A stretch of DNA of 64,000 nt from Nocardia ninae NBRC 108245 (GTDB lineage: Bacteria; Actinomycetota; Actinomycetes; Mycobacteriales; Mycobacteriaceae): positions 50,722-114,721 of the forward strand of contig NZ_BJXA01000024.1 of the NCBI RefSeq assembly GCF_007990755.1. The letters are read 5' to 3'. The notes below the pieces were generated by a model. The model saw only the letters and a program-made list of their open reading frames with translations, had not been told where the DNA came from and did no database searches. Below, in pieces: positions 9,406-15,497 of this stretch (its first letter is position 1; every line of letters starts with the position of its first letter). Position numbers and translations under genes: made by a program.

Positions 9406-9792
9406 TCACCATGCGTGCGTGCCGGACTGTTCGACCGGCCGGGCGCCGGAGAAACGTGCCGCGAGGAAAGCGAGGTAGGCGATGAAGCCCACCGACCCGA
9501 GCGGCCTGCTCCGCCGGAAGGTGATGGCCAGTCCCAGTACTACTTCGGTGAGCCCGTTGCGATAGGTCCAGCGGCGGGTGGCGCGGGGAAATGCGCGCGC
9601 GGTCAGCGGATCGAAGGCCTGCGGCGCCGTGAAATGTGCCGCGCCGGTACCGGCGAGTCCGAGTCCGAAAGCCCGCGCGCGCAAGCTGTCCGGCGTCCGT
9701 GCCGGGAGCACGGCAGGATTCTGCGGCGGACTCCCCGCCGCGAGCGCTCGGGTCGACTTGCGGCGCTTACGACGGCCGATGATTCTGCCCAT
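9406..9792 (-). CDS. DoxX-like membrane protein
   Basis: A 128-residue small membrane protein. After a basic N-terminus (GRRKRRKST) come membrane segments including RAFGLGLAGTGAAHFT, TEVVLGLAITF and VGFIAYLAFLAARF. The GTGAAHFTAPQAF...RRWTYRNGLTEVVLG pattern fits the DoxX-like family. Its role is unknown; family members are linked to redox and thiol stress. The ATG at 9792 is preceded by GAGGAG. A palindrome shared with the ABC1-kinase genes lies about 110 bases upstream next to a -10-like TAGGGT, so it is probably a member of that regulon. Confidence 0.7.
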   Translation of the reverse strand: MGRIIGRRKRRKSTRALAAGSPPQNPAVLPARTPDSLRARAFGLGLAGTGAAHFTAPQAFDPLTARAFPRATRRWTYRNGLTEVVLGLAITFRRSRPLGSVGFIAYLAFLAARFSGARPVEQSGTHAW

Positions 9793-9896: not shown

Positions 9897-9918
9897 ACCC
9901 TAGCACTGTCTGGGACAG
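9897..9918 (-). promoter_or_regulatory. Operator CTGTC-N3-GACAG with -10-like TAGGGT, for the DoxX-like gene
   Basis: The site CTGTCTGGGACAG (9906-9918) has perfect 5-bp inverted arms around TGG. Read on the minus strand it is followed after three bases by TAGGGT (9902-9897). The same arrangement recurs at 11521, 12427 and 14479. The spacing places the palindrome between the -35 and -10 regions, where a bound regulator would block transcription. Confidence 0.65.
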
Positions 9919-9964
9919 CATGTCTCGGTAGGTGTCGTACCTTGCCCGTGGGGGACGGCCCGGC

Positions 9965-11455
9965 TCAGCCGACCGACATCTGGCGATTCGCGGCCTGGGC
10001 CCGCTGCTCGCGGACTGCGGCCAAGTCCACCGGCCGGTCCGGGTCGGGATCCTCGAGCGTGCCGAGCGCCTCGGCCAGCATCGGCATCCAGCGCAGGATC
10101 TCCTCGCGGTACGGCCCCTCCGTCTCCAGCTGGCTCAGCACCCCGACCAGCGTGAGCGCGGCCCGCGCGAACGGCGTGAAGTAGGCGGGCATCGTCATCT
10201 CGCGCACCACATTCGACAGCCGCGGATTGGTGGTGCGCAGCACCTGTTTGCGCAGCCACGGCGTCGTCATCCGATAGGTTGCGTGCTTGAACGGCTCACT
10301 GCACGGTTCGACAACGGCGTAGAGCGCGTCGCTGTCGAACGCGCGTCCGAAGGTAACGAAGCCGTGCCGCCGGGTCGCCGCTTCCAGCTGCTCGGGTCCG
10401 CCGCCGGTGAAGAAGGCCTTGCAGTAGTCGATCGCCAGTTCCTCGAAACCCTCGGGCGGCCAGGCACAGCAGGCCCCGAAGTCGACCACGCCGAGCCGTC
10501 CGTCGGGCAGTACGCGGAAGTTGCCGGGATGCGGATCGGCATAGAGCAGCCCGTGCCGTCCCCAGCCGGAGGTGACGAAACGAACCATGAGCATGCCGAC
10601 CCGATCGCGCTCGTCCTGCGCGCCGGTGGCCACGATCCTGGTGAGCGGGGTGCCCTCGACCCACTCGGTGATCAGCACGTCGCCGCACTGCGCGACCACC
10701 TCGGGGACGTAGAAGTCCGGGTCGTCCGCGTAGGCCACGGCGAAGGCGCGCTGATACTCGGCCTCGGCCGCGTAGTCCAGTTCCTCCCGGACGCAGTCGC
10801 AGATCGCCTCGGTGACCGCCTTGACGTCGGCGCCGGGCAGGAAGACGGTGGCCAGATGCGAGATCCGGCGCAGCTGCTCCAGATCGCCCTCCACCGCCTG
10901 GCGGCCGCCGGGGTACATCACCTTGACCGCGACCGCCCTGCCGTCGTGCCACACCGCGCGGTGTACCTGGCCGAGCGAGGCCGCGGCCGCCCGTCGATCG
11001 TCGAATTCCCGGAAGCTGTCGCGCCAGTCCGCACCCATGCTGGCCGCGATGGCCTCGTGCACCGTCCGCGGCAGCATGGCGGGGGCCGCGTCCTGCAGCT
11101 GGCTCAGCGCGATCCGATACGGCTCGGCGAGCTCCGGCGGCAGCGCCAGTTCGTAAATCGCAAGCAGCTGACCGAGTTTCGCGGCGCAGCCCTTCAACTC
11201 GCCGAGCACCTCGAACATGTGCTGGGCGGTGCGCAATTGGATGTCTCGATTGACTTCTTCGGACGATCTGCCGAGGGCGCGTTTACCGACGCCCGCGGCC
11301 TGCCGACCGGCGAAGGCCAAGGGCAGTGCGGCGAGCTTCGCATTGCGAACAGCGGTGCGAACTGGGGGTTTGCCGTCGGACCTCGACGCGAAAAGGCGCG
11401 AGCGCTTGCTCGTTGAACCCTCGTCTGAACTGTCGCCGCTGCGCCGGATCGCCAT
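9965..11455 (-). CDS. ABC1/UbiB (AarF)-family atypical kinase, copy 1
   Basis: A 496-residue member of the ABC1/ADCK/UbiB family, atypical protein-kinase-like ATPases linked to isoprenoid lipid and quinone metabolism. Hallmarks: the KxGQ motif AAKLGQLLA (91-99), the Ala-rich nucleotide loop RAAAASLGQVHRA (155-167) replacing a Gly-rich loop, VAVKV with the ATP-contacting Lys178, DPHPGN (307-312) and VVDFGA with DFG (325-327). All catalytic residues are present. No C-terminal membrane anchor is evident. It is transcribed divergently from the GntR gene through two palindromes. A second family member lies at 12476. The target lipid or protein is unknown. Confidence 0.88.
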   Translation of the reverse strand: MAIRRSGDSSDEGSTSKRSRLFASRSDGKPPVRTAVRNAKLAALPLAFAGRQAAGVGKRALGRSSEEVNRDIQLRTAQHMFEVLGELKGCAAKLGQLLAIYELALPPELAEPYRIALSQLQDAAPAMLPRTVHEAIAASMGADWRDSFREFDDRRAAAASLGQVHRAVWHDGRAVAVKVMYPGGRQAVEGDLEQLRRISHLATVFLPGADVKAVTEAICDCVREELDYAAEAEYQRAFAVAYADDPDFYVPEVVAQCGDVLITEWVEGTPLTRIVATGAQDERDRVGMLMVRFVTSGWGRHGLLYADPHPGNFRVLPDGRLGVVDFGACCAWPPEGFEELAIDYCKAFFTGGGPEQLEAATRRHGFVTFGRAFDSDALYAVVEPCSEPFKHATYRMTTPWLRKQVLRTTNPRLSNVVREMTMPAYFTPFARAALTLVGVLSQLETEGPYREEILRWMPMLAEALGTLEDPDPDRPVDLAAVREQRAQAANRQMSVG

Positions 11456-11496
11456 GACTCACCTCACACTGTGCGCCGACCAGTGTTACACACGTG

Positions 11497-11533
11497 CAGT
11501 CTGGCACAGTAGGCCTTAGACTGTCTGGGACGT
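11497..11533. promoter_or_regulatory. Two tandem operators in the divergent ABC1-1/GntR promoter
   Basis: CTGTCTGGGACGT (11521-11533) and CAGTCTGGCACAG (11497-11509) match the local palindrome CTGTC-N3-GACAG with one or two mismatched arm bases. Their centres are 24 bp apart. On the minus strand the first is followed two bases later by TAAGGC, a -10-like hexamer for the kinase gene. A further partial copy, GGATCCCAGACGG (11565-11577), overlaps the first codons of the GntR gene. Autoregulation is therefore likely. Confidence 0.65.
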
Positions 11534-11561
11534 ATTCGAACGTAGTCGAAAGGTGACTTCG

Positions 11562-12338
11562 ATGGGATCCCAGACGGTAGTCGCCGACGTTGCCGATGAG
11601 TTGGCACGCCGGGTTGCCGCGGGGGAGTATCAGCCGGGGGATCTCATGCCGTCCGTGCGGCAGGTGGCCGAGGAGTTCGACATGAACCGGGCGACCGCGC
11701 AGCTGACGCTGGGACGGCTGGAGACGAACGGATTCGTCGAGGCGCGCCGCGGCAAGGGTTTCACCATCCGCGATGTCCGCGAGGCCGGTGGCGTCGATGT
11801 GTATCGGCAGCTGTTCCGGTTCTCGATTCCGATGCCAGACGTCGCGACCGAGATGTTCCGCGACATCGTCGATGTCGAGCGCGGCATCGTGATGGAGACG
11901 CTGCTCGCCTACACCGGCAGCGAGCAGGCGATCGATCAGACCGTCCTCAAGGCGGAGATCGACAAGCTGGAAGCCATTGCCCGCCAGGATGATCCGGACC
12001 TGCGCCAGATTCTGGCCATCGAGGTCGGGCTGGTCCGCAGGCTGCTCACGGCGCTCGGGCTCACCATGCAGCGGGCCATCATGAACTCGGTCGGCGAGAT
12101 GGTGCTCGAGGTGCCGGAGGCGGTCGAGGCGTTCTTCGCGGGCGCACCGGATCTGCACGTGCTGGTCTGGCGGGCGCTCGCGGCGGTGTGGGACTCCGGT
12201 TCCGGGCCGTCCGACGCGCAGGTCGCGCTGTTCGAGGATCTGTTCGGGATGTACCACGAGCGGGTGATCCTGCGCTTCGACGAGCTGGTGGGCGCGGCGC
12301 ACGGGCACGCCGACAACGGGCACGCGGCGACCGCCTGA
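11562..12338 (+). CDS. GntR-family transcriptional regulator
   Basis: A 258-residue GntR protein. The N-terminal winged helix spans about residues 5-72 (VADELARRVAAGEYQPGDLMPSVRQVAEEFDMNR begins it; then LGRLETNGFVEARRGKGF). The C-terminal part is all-helical (VERGIVMETLLAYTG, IDKLEAIARQDDPDLRQ) and FCD-like in style but divergent. ATG 11562 was preferred over GTG 11553 because AAGGTG lies eight bases upstream. Repeated palindromes lie at its own promoter and at four neighbouring promoters, so it is the best candidate for the factor that binds them. The effector is unknown. Confidence 0.85.
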   Translation: MGSQTVVADVADELARRVAAGEYQPGDLMPSVRQVAEEFDMNRATAQLTLGRLETNGFVEARRGKGFTIRDVREAGGVDVYRQLFRFSIPMPDVATEMFRDIVDVERGIVMETLLAYTGSEQAIDQTVLKAEIDKLEAIARQDDPDLRQILAIEVGLVRRLLTALGLTMQRAIMNSVGEMVLEVPEAVEAFFAGAPDLHVLVWRALAAVWDSGSGPSDAQVALFEDLFGMYHERVILRFDELVGAAHGHADNGHAATA

Positions 12339-12426
12339 CGGCGTCTTCCCCGCCCGCAGTCCCGATCTCCCTTGCTGTTCCGCCCGGCCGATGCGACTCG
12401 TGCGGCCGTATTGCCCCATTGCCTCA

Positions 12427-12447
12427 CTGTCCCAGACGGAATAGGGT
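12427..12447 (+). promoter_or_regulatory. Operator plus -10-like TAGGGT upstream of ABC1 kinase copy 2
   Basis: CTGTCCCAGACGG (12427-12439) is the shared palindrome with one arm mismatch. It is followed by TAGGGT (12442-12447), 28 bases before the start codon. The layout copies that at 9897-9918 on the opposite strand. Confidence 0.65.
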
Positions 12448-12475
12448 AAAGGGCACGCAACGAAGCGAGGGAAAC

Positions 12476-13813
12476 ATGGCAGGCAGCAGGCGTAAGGGCT
12501 TGGCGCGGTCGGCGAAGTTGGCCGGCCTGCCGATGAGCATCATGGCCCGCCGGGTCACCGCGACCGGGCGCGCGATGATGACCGGCGCATCGCGCGACGA
12601 ACTCGACGACGAGCTCATCGACAAGGCCGCCGACCAGATGTTTGCTGTACTCGGCGAACTCAAGGGCGGCGCGATGAAACTCGGCCAAGCACTGAGCGTG
12701 GCTGAGGCCAGCATTCCGCCCCGCTTCGCCGACCGCTACCGCGACGCGCTCACCAAGCTCCAGTCGCAGGCGCCGCCCATGCCGACCAGCGCTGTGCATC
12801 GGATGCTCGCCGAACAACTCGGCTCCCGCTGGCGCGAACGCTTCACCGAGTTCGATGACAAGCCGGTCGCCGCGGCCAGCATCGGGCAGGTGCACCGCGC
12901 CGTCTGGCGCGACGGCCGCACCGTCGCGGTGAAGGTGCAGTACCCGGGCGCCGACACGGCCCTGATGTCGGACTTGAAAATGCTCCAGATGTTCTCCGGC
13001 GCTTTCGGTCTCATGATGCCGGGCGCGGACACCAAGGCACTGATCGCGGAGTTCATCGACCGCACCGCCGACGAGCTCGACTACCGGATCGAGGCCGATC
13101 ACCAGCGGCGCTTCGCCAAGGTCTTCGCCGGTGACCCGGACTTCCAGATCCCCAGGGTGATCGCCAGCGCACCGAAAGTGCTTGTCTCGGAATGGATGCA
13201 GGCCACTCCGCTCTCAGCGATCATCGCCGACGGCACCAAACAGCAGCGCGATCGAGCGGGCCGGCTGCTCGTCGAATTCTCGCTGTCCTCGCCGGTCCGG
13301 GCCGGGTACCTGCATTGCGATCCGCATCCGGGTAACTTCCAGCTGCTCGACGACGGGCGTCTCGGGATCATCGACTTCGGCGCGTCCATCGCACTGCCGG
13401 AGGGCATTCCGTCGGTGATCGGCGAGCTGGCTCGCTGTGCGGTGCGCGAAGACTACGGACAGTTGGCGATCGTGCTGCGCGACAACGGTTTCGTACGGCC
13501 GGGCCACGCGCTGGAGCTCGGCCCGATCGAGCGACTGGTGGCGCCGATCGTGGCGCAGATCAGCGGCGAGAGCGTGCACATCAGCCGAGAACTGTTGCAG
13601 GGGCACACCGCTCGCGCGCTGGACATGAAGAATGTGTCGCTGGCCAACACCAGGGCGGTCAAGGCGCCCGCCGAGATTCCGGAGCTGGCCATGCTCGGCC
13701 GGGTCTTCGCCGGCGTCGTCGGGGTGTGCGCCCAGCTCGACGCGGAAGGACCGTTCGTCGAGCTGGTCGCGCGCTGGCTGCCCGGTTTCGGCGAGGACGG
13801 AGCCGCGGCCTGA
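12476..13813 (+). CDS. ABC1/UbiB (AarF)-family atypical kinase, copy 2
   Basis: A 445-residue paralogue of the kinase at 9965. Motifs: KxGQ in GGAMKLGQALS (64-74), the Ala-rich loop VAAASIGQVHRA (131-142), VAVKV with Lys153, DPHPGN (282-287) and DFG (300-302). It is shorter at the N-terminus than copy 1. ATG 12476 follows GAGGGA by four bases and the upstream operator. An open frame reaching back to 12188 overlaps the GntR gene and is not used. Both kinases look active and face outward from the regulator, which suggests a matched pair acting in one process. Confidence 0.87.
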   Translation: MAGSRRKGLARSAKLAGLPMSIMARRVTATGRAMMTGASRDELDDELIDKAADQMFAVLGELKGGAMKLGQALSVAEASIPPRFADRYRDALTKLQSQAPPMPTSAVHRMLAEQLGSRWRERFTEFDDKPVAAASIGQVHRAVWRDGRTVAVKVQYPGADTALMSDLKMLQMFSGAFGLMMPGADTKALIAEFIDRTADELDYRIEADHQRRFAKVFAGDPDFQIPRVIASAPKVLVSEWMQATPLSAIIADGTKQQRDRAGRLLVEFSLSSPVRAGYLHCDPHPGNFQLLDDGRLGIIDFGASIALPEGIPSVIGELARCAVREDYGQLAIVLRDNGFVRPGHALELGPIERLVAPIVAQISGESVHISRELLQGHTARALDMKNVSLANTRAVKAPAEIPELAMLGRVFAGVVGVCAQLDAEGPFVELVARWLPGFGEDGAAA

Positions 13814-13817
13814 TCGC

Positions 13818-14411
13818 TCAGAGGCGACTGGCGAGCCCGCGCAGACTCCATCGCGCGAACGGCCGGGCCAGCGGCGCGAAGAGCTGATACGGAAGCAGCC
13901 AGCTGAGGCGCGGCTGTGCGGCCAGCGTCCAGGTGAGGGTGGTCGCGCCGGAATCCGTTGCGCTGAGCACGTATTCCTCGGCGATCGACTTGACGGCGAA
14001 CGGCACCGAGGAGGTGGTCGCGGTCAGCGCGAGCCGGTGCCCCTCTTCCCTGGCGACGACCTGTTCGGCACCGGCTACCAGAAAGCCGTCGAAGACGCGG
14101 GTGGCGCCGACGCCGCGGTCCTGGTCGGGGTAGCGCATGCCGTTGATCAGCGGCAGCCAGGAGAAGAACCCGTTGGTGTCGAGGGCGGCCCAGACACGCT
14201 CCGGTGACGCGTCGAAAGTGTGCGCGGCGGTGACCACGAAGCCTGCTTTCTTCGCCACGAAGCGCTCGAGTTTGTCGGCGCGCACCGGCGTGAGCGAGCT
14301 GCCGCCACCGGCGAGCACGGCCTTGGCCGAGCGTCGCAACCCGATCAGCACGGCCACTCCGGCGAGACCGAGGACGAGCAAGATGGCGGCGGCAATAATC
14401 CAGGGCGTCAT
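13818..14411 (-). CDS. SRPBCC (START-like) protein with N-terminal membrane anchor
   Basis: A 197-residue protein. Residues 3-27 form a membrane anchor (IIAAAILLVLGLAGVAVLIGL). The rest is a polyketide-cyclase/SRPBCC domain, starting VTAAHTFDASPERVWAALDT and ending near TLTWTLAAQPRLSWLLP. Such domains bind lipophilic ligands in a deep pocket. ATG 14411 follows GAGGAG by eight bases. The promoter carries the same palindrome as the ABC1-kinase genes, so a joint role with these lipid-linked kinases is plausible. The last codons nearly abut the convergent kinase gene. Confidence 0.78.
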   Translation of the reverse strand: MTPWIIAAAILLVLGLAGVAVLIGLRRSAKAVLAGGGSSLTPVRADKLERFVAKKAGFVVTAAHTFDASPERVWAALDTNGFFSWLPLINGMRYPDQDRGVGATRVFDGFLVAGAEQVVAREEGHRLALTATTSSVPFAVKSIAEEYVLSATDSGATTLTWTLAAQPRLSWLLPYQLFAPLARPFARWSLRGLASRL

Positions 14412-14470
14412 GGGGATACTCCTCGTGCTGCTACTGCGGTGATCGACGGCGCGGCAGCCGACGCTCGCGA

Positions 14471-14491
14471 AGTCTACACTGTCTGAGACGG
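14471..14491 (-). promoter_or_regulatory. Operator plus -10-like TAGACT between SRPBCC and DUF5996 genes
   Basis: CTGTCTGAGACGG (14479-14491) is the local palindrome with one arm mismatch. On the minus strand it is followed after two bases by TAGACT (14476-14471), giving a promoter for the SRPBCC gene. The divergent DUF5996 gene begins 43 bases away and could be co-controlled. Confidence 0.6.
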
Positions 14492-14534: not shown

Positions 14535-15497
14535 ATGACCGTGCCATTCGAGCCGTTGCCCGCGATTCCGCTGGACTCTTGGCGGCCGACCAAGGAGACA
14601 CTGCACCGCTTCGCCCAGATCGTCGGCAAGGTGGCGCTGGCCAAGGGCGTCCGGCGCAACCACTGGTGGCACATGACCTACCGGCTCACCGCGCGCGGCT
14701 GGACCACCGTCCCGCTCGGGTCTGCCCGCAACGGGCCGGTCTTCACCTGCGCGTTCGACTTCTTCGATCATGTGCTGCGCATCGCCACCGATCAGGGCAC
14801 CCAGGTCGAGATCGATCTCGTCGACCAGTCGGTGGCCACCTTCTACGGCGCGGTGCGCAACGGTCTGCGCGACTTGGACGTGGATGTCGTGCTGGCGCAC
14901 CCGAATCCGTTCGACCTACCGGACGCGCACCGGCCGTTCGAGGACGACGACGAACACCGTGACTACGATCCGGACAAGGCGCGCCACGCTTTTCAGGTGC
15001 AGAGTCAGGTCGGCCGGGTACTCGAGGAGTTCAGCGCGACCTTCTCCGGAAAGATCAGCCCGGTCCAATTGTTCTGGCACACCTTCGATATCGCGGTGCA
15101 GCGGTTCTCGCCGCAGCACATCGAGCTGCCCGACACGGTGGACCCGGTGACCCGCGAGGCGTACTCGCGCGAGGTGATCAGCTCCGGCTTCTGGTTCGGC
15201 GACGACAAAGTGCCGGAGCCGACGTTCTACTCCTACACCGCACCCGAGCCCGCCGGACTGGCCGACCGTGCGCTGACCCCCGCCGGTGCCCACTGGATCA
15301 CCGCGGGCGCGGGCCACTCGGCGTACTACCCGTACGACGCCGCCCGTCAGACCGCCGACCCGGTCGGCGCCGCGCTCGAGTTCTTCCAGTCCGTCTACGC
15401 CAACGGGGCCGAGCTGGCCGGGTGGGATACCGACCAGCTCGCCTGCGCGGGCGGCATCACCGACCCGGTGTTGCGCGAAAAAGGCTGGCTGGAGTGA
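14535..15497 (+). CDS. DUF5996 family protein
   Basis: A 320-residue protein of uncharacterised family DUF5996. Recognisable features are the N-terminal block LDSWRPTKETLHRFAQIVGKV, RRNHWWHMTYRLTARG, a repeated FWHTFD-type segment (VQLFWHTFDIAVQRFS), and a C-terminal part rich in Tyr/Trp (PTFYSYTAPEPAGL, WITAGAGHSAYYPYD). No signal peptide or membrane segment is seen. The function is unknown; conserved aromatics and His would suit an enzyme or binding fold. The start has no strong ribosome site. It is divergent from the SRPBCC gene across an operator of the local regulon. Confidence 0.72.
   Translation: MTVPFEPLPAIPLDSWRPTKETLHRFAQIVGKVALAKGVRRNHWWHMTYRLTARGWTTVPLGSARNGPVFTCAFDFFDHVLRIATDQGTQVEIDLVDQSVATFYGAVRNGLRDLDVDVVLAHPNPFDLPDAHRPFEDDDEHRDYDPDKARHAFQVQSQVGRVLEEFSATFSGKISPVQLFWHTFDIAVQRFSPQHIELPDTVDPVTREAYSREVISSGFWFGDDKVPEPTFYSYTAPEPAGLADRALTPAGAHWITAGAGHSAYYPYDAARQTADPVGAALEFFQSVYANGAELAGWDTDQLACAGGITDPVLREKGWLE

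Follow-up and report, generated by a model that had tools for sequence, protein, structure and literature searches.

A 13-bp palindrome, CTGTC-YSR-GACAG, is probably the operator of a GntR-family repressor with a predicted FadR fold that governs a regulon of ABC1-type kinases and of lipid uptake and oxidation in Nocardia. The palindrome was analysed in a stretch of 64,000 nucleotides (hereafter the window) from Nocardia ninae NBRC 108245 (contig NZ_BJXA01000024.1, positions 50,722 to 114,721), which belongs to a genome of 9.70 Mb. A preliminary description, made from the letters of the window, had placed the repeat at four or five promoters around two ABC1 kinases and a GntR gene, and had proposed that the GntR protein binds it and controls a local envelope or lipid module. 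Open reading frames and Pfam matches between 9406 and 15497 give the gene order DoxX-like (minus strand), ABC1a (minus), GntR (plus), ABC1b (plus), SRPBCC (minus) and DUF5996 (plus).

Four promoter regions of the window carry the palindrome. The copy at 9906-9918, CTGTCTGGGACAG, is followed on the minus strand by tgc and TAGGGT (9902-9897), while CTGTCTGGGACGT (11521-11533) lies between ABC1a and GntR, where it would serve autoregulation. The third copy, CTGTCCCAGACGG (12427-12439), occupies the -35/-10 spacer of ABC1b, and the fourth, CTGTCTGAGACGG (14479-14491), is common to SRPBCC (TAGACT, 14476-14471, minus) and DUF5996 (TACACT, 14475-14480, plus), an arrangement that recurs in loci L266, L268, L270, L302 and L309. 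These copies and a fifth one, CAGTCTGGCACAG at 11497-11509, were all present as named in the preliminary description, as were its hexamers TAGGGT (9897-9902, minus; 12442-12447, plus), TAAGGC (11513-11518, minus) and TAGACT (14471-14476, minus). Further hexamers, TAGACT at 11517-11522 (plus) and the TACACT of DUF5996, run into operators and suit GntR and DUF5996.

Conservation upstream of orthologues, on which the proposal had been made to depend beforehand, was assessed in 150 bases around the GntR start from 60 named Nocardia loci, 14 other loci and the window, which together make 75 loci with 69 distinct sequences. The site at 11521 is retained as CTGTCTGRGAC in 68 of the 69 distinct sequences, the exception being a locus of another genus (L100) in which GntR stands in tandem with an ABC1 gene. 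TAgACTGTCTGGGACGT forms the most conserved block, with most flanking columns at 35-65%. The gntR promoter consists of a -35-like GTGCAG (11494-11499, plus; column conservation mostly 0.85-0.91) and, 17 bp further, the -10 TAGACT (11517-11522), which overlaps the operator. The same comparison tells true copies from false ones. Equivalents of the 11497 copy scatter between 2 and 9 mismatches among orthologues (14 of 68 have 2), and the copy coincides with the GTGCAG element and its spacer; it was ruled out as an operator. The partial copy at 11565, a half-site at the GntR start codon, varies between orthologues when judged by eye and was likewise discarded. The closest named kin of the GntR protein are found in N. 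suismassiliense (97% identity), N. tenerifensis and N. colli (both 95%). In a second GntR clade, whose proteins start with MGDRTVV or MGERTVV (L139, L141, L147, L148, L150), the operator is kept and ABC1a does not adjoin.

That the repeats reflect chance or a basal promoter element is hardly credible, although the loose spelling CTGTCN3GACAG with up to two mismatches occurs 32 times in the window against 35.8 expected, and was rejected as evidence for that reason. The genome scan proposed at the outset becomes informative once the centre is fixed as YSR: ACTGTCTSRGACRG with at most one mismatch gives 26 matches in the N. ninae genome versus 4 for the reversed control, palindromic places being counted on both strands. 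A 13-bp palindrome with a defined centre, fixed promoter offsets and linkage to one regulator gene argues against chance.

The offsets were obtained from 94 oriented site-gene contexts, in which TANNNT is concentrated at +15 (31 cases), -4 (29), -2 (20) and +16 (17), compared with a mean of 1.3 per offset. Because the hexamers at -4 and -2 include operator letters, the TA dinucleotide alone was also counted, giving 34, 29, 20 and 19 cases at +15, -4, -2 and +16, respectively, and a mean of 1.9 elsewhere. For ABC1b, TTGCCT (12419-12424, plus) and TAGGGT (12442-12447, plus) are separated by 17 bp, and the best promoter among its orthologues is TTGACC-17-TAGGGT with the operator in the spacer. 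The best flavin monooxygenase promoters read TTGATC-17-TAGTCT or TACTCT, whereas the best cases for DUF5996 and SDR genes have TACACT running into the operator. In divergent gene pairs one operator underlies both promoters. A protein bound in the spacer or on the -10 would block RNA polymerase, and we infer that the regulator acts as a repressor.

The regulon is not local, as first supposed, since sites are also found elsewhere in the N. ninae genome and at dozens of places in further Nocardia genomes. Further sites in the own genome, whose flanks have zero to two mismatches, were located between TetR-ABC1c-PF00144 and SDR-SDR-flavin monooxygenase (C2:115195), and at an alpha/beta hydrolase-SDR fusion (C25:92800), a CMAS-type methyltransferase (C38:20457), a secretory lipase (C108:8746) and two Metal_hydrol genes with a flavin monooxygenase (C125:15337). 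The one-mismatch near-site ACTGTCTGGGTCAG (C20:64685; L315 4687) stands about 100 bp before YrbE of an own mce operon. Across Nocardia, CTGTCTSRGACAG is present in 59 of 118 genomes. The matches listed, 9 of genome G197 being left out, comprise 68 core sites with centre TGA, TCA, TGG or CCA and 55 copies with centre CGA. Scanning 48 loci fetched around sites and 16 other loci gave 80 sites, of which 4 with centre CGA or CGG were set aside. Among the remaining 76 (one place, in L307 and L308, is counted twice), 72 do not fall within a called gene. A gene start follows 68 of the 76 at a distance of up to 350 bp, and the other 8 have no called start in that range.

Some occurrences stand apart from this pattern. 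In five genomes of other genera (G067, G135, G005, G073, G050), the palindrome occurs in multiple copies, which are found at the 3' ends of transposase genes and not at promoters (L188-L200, L202); the integrase core PF00665 was found in the one tested locus, L193, and from their two-gene layout we take these loci to be IS3-type. Two places fetched from G092 are at contig ends, and G080 and G129 gave single, unexplained copies. Within Nocardia, six exact copies of the operator fall in about 24 kb of G166 (L307 and L308; G166:C56:34489-62230), together with flavin monooxygenases, SDRs, YrbE/MCE, Abhydrolase_3, SRPBCC, a GntR copy and a divergent ABC1 gene. At E 1e-40, three or four copies of GntR were found in each of G217, G166, G171 and G223, including paralogues of 36-38% identity.

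The GntR protein is most likely the binder of the palindrome, as the preliminary description predicted; the case is comparative. Sites cluster at GntR genes, including second copies and the orthologues of another genus, and a GntR orthologue lies within 5 kb of 32 of the 68 core sites among the matches listed. GntR was found in 98 of the 118 genomes at E 1e-40, and the 20 genomes without it have only two core sites among the matches listed, both inside called genes. The protein (11562-12338, plus) has a winged helix-turn-helix domain, PF00392, at residues 9-69 (E 3.2e-14; 52.8 bits, cut-off 27), and its recognition region N42 to L48 is invariant in 30 orthologues. The predicted operator ctGTc-YSR-gACag fits the GntR-family rule NyGTNxACNy given in passages of PMC4494728.

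Short palindromes also suit TetR proteins. It is accordingly possible, if quite unlikely, that an unlinked regulator such as a TetR protein owns the palindrome and that gntR is merely one of its targets; the TetR gene c6 does adjoin a site, together with ABC1c. However, just 13 of the 118 genomes have a c6 match at E 1e-60, on which ground it was rejected as a general binder, and core sites occur in many genomes lacking it (for instance, G206, G223 and G255). The clustering of sites at GntR genes, the GT/AC half-sites and the invariant recognition residues of GntR also speak against such a regulator.

The subfamily of the GntR protein is indicated by its predicted fold. FadR-type proteins have an all-helical C-terminal domain with six or seven helices and 150-170 residues, according to passages of PMC4494728. 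In the AlphaFold2 model, helices fill the region between residues 77 and 251 and strands are confined to the winged helix-turn-helix domain, as the FadR type demands, and FadR entries rank first in fold searches. The resemblance to the acyl-CoA-responsive FadR class is limited to this predicted fold. The metal-binding FCD subtype is marked by a conserved Asp together with three His. In the 30 orthologues no His other than H199 and H232 is invariant, which does not fit this subtype.

The first genes behind the sites, with a site between divergent genes counted for both, were dominated by SDR-type genes (19) and flavin monooxygenases (17), followed by ABC1b (7), Abhydrolase_3, DUF5996, SRPBCC and TetR c6 (5 each) and YrbE (4). 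Fourteen more clusters have one or two sites, including AMP-binding enzyme, lipase-like and Metal_hydrol genes. YrbE/MlaE genes of mce operons stand behind sites in four genomes (L206, L278, L296, L307). The SDR, flavin monooxygenase, YrbE and ABC1c references were drawn from site loci, which makes those tallies partly circular, whereas the ABC1a and ABC1b reference proteins are the window's own. Of the proposed envelope or lipid module, the linkage of both ABC1 kinases, SRPBCC and also DUF5996 in a lipid-type regulon is upheld by the comparison; the oxidoreductases, hydrolases and Mce importers among the first genes suggest that a hydrophobic compound is taken up and oxidised, rather than a role in the envelope.

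ABC1 genes recur at these loci: 24 of the 48 site loci contain one, as do 13 of the 35 that lack GntR, compared with 1 of 26 control loci (chance pattern hits). Four of these 13 (L277, L289, L292, L297) are still a few kb from a GntR gene, and four of the other nine have a site facing a TetR-ABC1c operon. Five of the 35 site loci that lack GntR contain no gene of the reference types. Among these five, a lipase-like and a carbonic-anhydrase gene are present in L269 and L310, L273 and L306 come from GntR-less genomes with the site inside a called gene, and L281 fits no category. The N. ninae genome contains seven strong ABC1 genes (at least 182 bits) and nine weaker matches. Three of the strong ones, ABC1a, ABC1b and ABC1c (via its TetR operon), are behind a site; no site was seen at the other four.

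In the window, ABC1a (9965-11455, minus, divergent from GntR) and ABC1b (12476-13813, plus) match PF03109 with 180.2 and 203.1 bits (cut-off 22.9). Atypical kinases of the ABC1/UbiB type are recognised by their KxGQ, Ala-rich loop and DFG motifs, and both translations contain such motifs (KLGQ; AAASLGQ and AAASIGQ; DPHPGN; DFGA). Of 74 fetched GntR loci, 54 show at least a partial match to ABC1a. The best ABC1b matches in the 20 genomes that lack GntR reach only 49-52% identity, so that no close orthologue is available there for comparison. The SRPBCC protein (13818-14411, minus; PF10604, Polyketide_cyc2) has an N-terminal hydrophobic helix, read by eye, and the DUF5996 protein (14535-15497, plus) matches PF19459 with 361 bits. 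The small membrane-type protein at 9406-9792 (minus) had been labelled DoxX-like; it is an open reading frame behind operator 9906 with orthologues behind sites in L266 and L268, and the label found no match in Pfam or NCBIfam at 0.001.

Several points weigh against a GntR repressor of this regulon. The remaining five ABC1 loci without GntR (L274, L287, L294, L300, L304) have a site that faces a flavin-monooxygenase-type gene (AMP-binding in L287) with an ABC1a-like gene on its other side, which makes ABC1 there a neighbour and not a demonstrated target. An exact core site, among the matches listed, occurs in only 26 of the 98 GntR-bearing genomes, so that, apart from the site at the gntR promoter, the regulon depends on the clade. 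The spacing GTM-N0-1-KAC, given for the FadR subfamily in passages of PMC4494728, differs from the wider GTC-N3-GAC found here. The ABC1a -10 (TAAGGC) is poor, and a good -35 is missing at the 9906 site. The counts are not independent, as they include related genomes, and genes were called with a home-made codon model.

The repressor would, without ligand, sit in the -35/-10 spacer or on the -10 and block RNA polymerase at gntR itself, ABC1a, ABC1b, SRPBCC/DUF5996 and the DoxX-like gene. Unlinked targets would be TetR-ABC1c facing SDR-SDR-flavin monooxygenase, the alpha/beta hydrolase-SDR fusion, Metal_hydrol-flavin monooxygenase and perhaps the mce operon. A hydrophobic or acyl-CoA-like ligand would free GntR from DNA and induce uptake (Mce/YrbE), membrane mobilisation (ABC1 kinases with SRPBCC, whose family members often bind lipids) and oxidative attack (flavin monooxygenase, SDR, hydrolases). 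The sites thus most likely mark an inducible programme for uptake, mobilisation and oxidation of a hydrophobic compound, fatty or sterol-like.

SDRs and flavin monooxygenases can also detoxify, and the main functional rival is a membrane-stress or drug-tolerance response, in which ABC1, SRPBCC and hydrolases would protect the membrane while the oxidoreductases detoxify. MABP-1, reported to confer macrolide resistance (PMC8696161), lends it some support, as both kinases match the MABP-1 model NF050082; however, their scores (360.2 and 509.9 bits) stay under the cut-off of 800 bits. The YrbE/MlaE genes behind sites, and the AMP-binding enzymes, lipases and Abhydrolase_3 among the first genes, suit substrate use instead, and we regard the stress response as rather unlikely.

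Copies with centre CGA (CTGTCTCGGACAG) were first used as a negative control for linkage, and none of the 55 among the matches listed is within 25 kb of a GntR gene. They were dropped as a neutral control because they repeatedly precede the same gene, a PF00144 hydrolase (cluster c14, assigned by Pfam on the own-genome copy), in 12 of 22 inspected loci; linkage is fairly judged against genome size (a 10-kb stretch in 6-10 Mb) and by the remaining tests. Distances to the called c14 start are 98 bp in eight cases, 97 and 133 in one each and 53 in two. CTGTCCGAGACAG lies 97-98 bp before the PF00144 gene in L211 3001 (G000:C56:55837), L233, L234, L239, L241-L243, L246, L258 and L262. The palindrome was not found in the 250 bp before any of 17 close PF00144 orthologues of GntR-less genomes, a one-sided comparison since the GntR-bearing loci were chosen for holding a copy. 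The own-genome copy ends 5 nt before TTGCCC-17-TACCGT; this place just upstream of the -35 is activator-like, and the GntR protein might also activate. A gene starting with MTPS, whose own copy has an SLT_2 transglycosylase domain, is possibly a further target: ACTGTCTTAGACAG precedes it in L214 1035 (G000:C78:1035), and CTGTCCGAGACAG does so in two other Nocardia (L240, L247), at distances of 47-59 bp across the three loci.

The nearest known systems share parts with this regulon. FadR of E. coli and Vibrio, a fatty-acid-responsive GntR regulator, is 16-19% identical to the Nocardia protein in fold-search alignments, but differs in its operator (GTM-N0-1-KAC versus GTC-N3-GAC) and in its target genes. 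Mce1R (Rv0165c), a FadR-subfamily repressor of mce1, is, as the Nocardia protein may be, a GntR-type negative regulator of an mce operon (passages of PMC2277422 and PMC2867952), with a binding site not deciphered according to PMC2867952; its gene layout differs, as Nocardia gntR is divergent from ABC1a and the mce operons seen lie elsewhere. Mce3R and KstR (Rv3574) of mycobacteria resemble it in their wide lipid-catabolic regulons (PMC11667970, PMC1995591), but are TetR-type proteins, of which Mce3R binds a non-palindrome according to the title of PMC11667970. MoyR (Rv0792c) is also a GntR protein linked to monooxygenase genes, although it belongs to the HutC subfamily with another gene set, and no such operator appears in the passages of PMC8698889. 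The ABC1 domain is common to the Nocardia kinases, MABP-1 and the yeast UbiB proteins Cqd1 and Cqd2, which affect the cellular distribution of the membrane lipid coenzyme Q (abstract of PMC8346625). Unlike these, Nocardia ABC1 genes share one operator with monooxygenases, SDRs and Mce importers or lie beside them.

No description of the regulon was found in the searched literature, most subscription literature being outside its scope, in agreement with the earlier remark that no system of this composition was known. The four motif spellings do not occur in any of 5.39 million papers, DUF5996 is likewise absent, and the only match for Nocardia, GntR and ABC1 together is titled on transport proteins of Myxococcus and Streptomyces. 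The parts belong to known kinds; what looks undescribed in the literature searched is how the regulon is composed, its operator and the ABC1 recurrence.

ABC1/UbiB kinases occur across life, and to our knowledge their role in bacteria outside quinone synthesis is largely open. Through the conserved predicted operator, several of them fall under one lipid-type regulon or lie next to it, which offers a concrete hypothesis, substrate mobilisation for oxidation, with a defined gene set. Tentatively, the kinases, SRPBCC and Mce proteins could make up an inducible machine, which would lift a sterol, terpenoid or wax-like substrate from the membrane and pass it to flavin monooxygenases and SDRs. Its control would lie with a single FadR-like regulator that has its own operator class and may also activate the PF00144 gene from the CGA site. 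The regulon would add to the GntR operators a class in which GTC and GAC are three bases apart, and would give DUF5996 a regulatory context.
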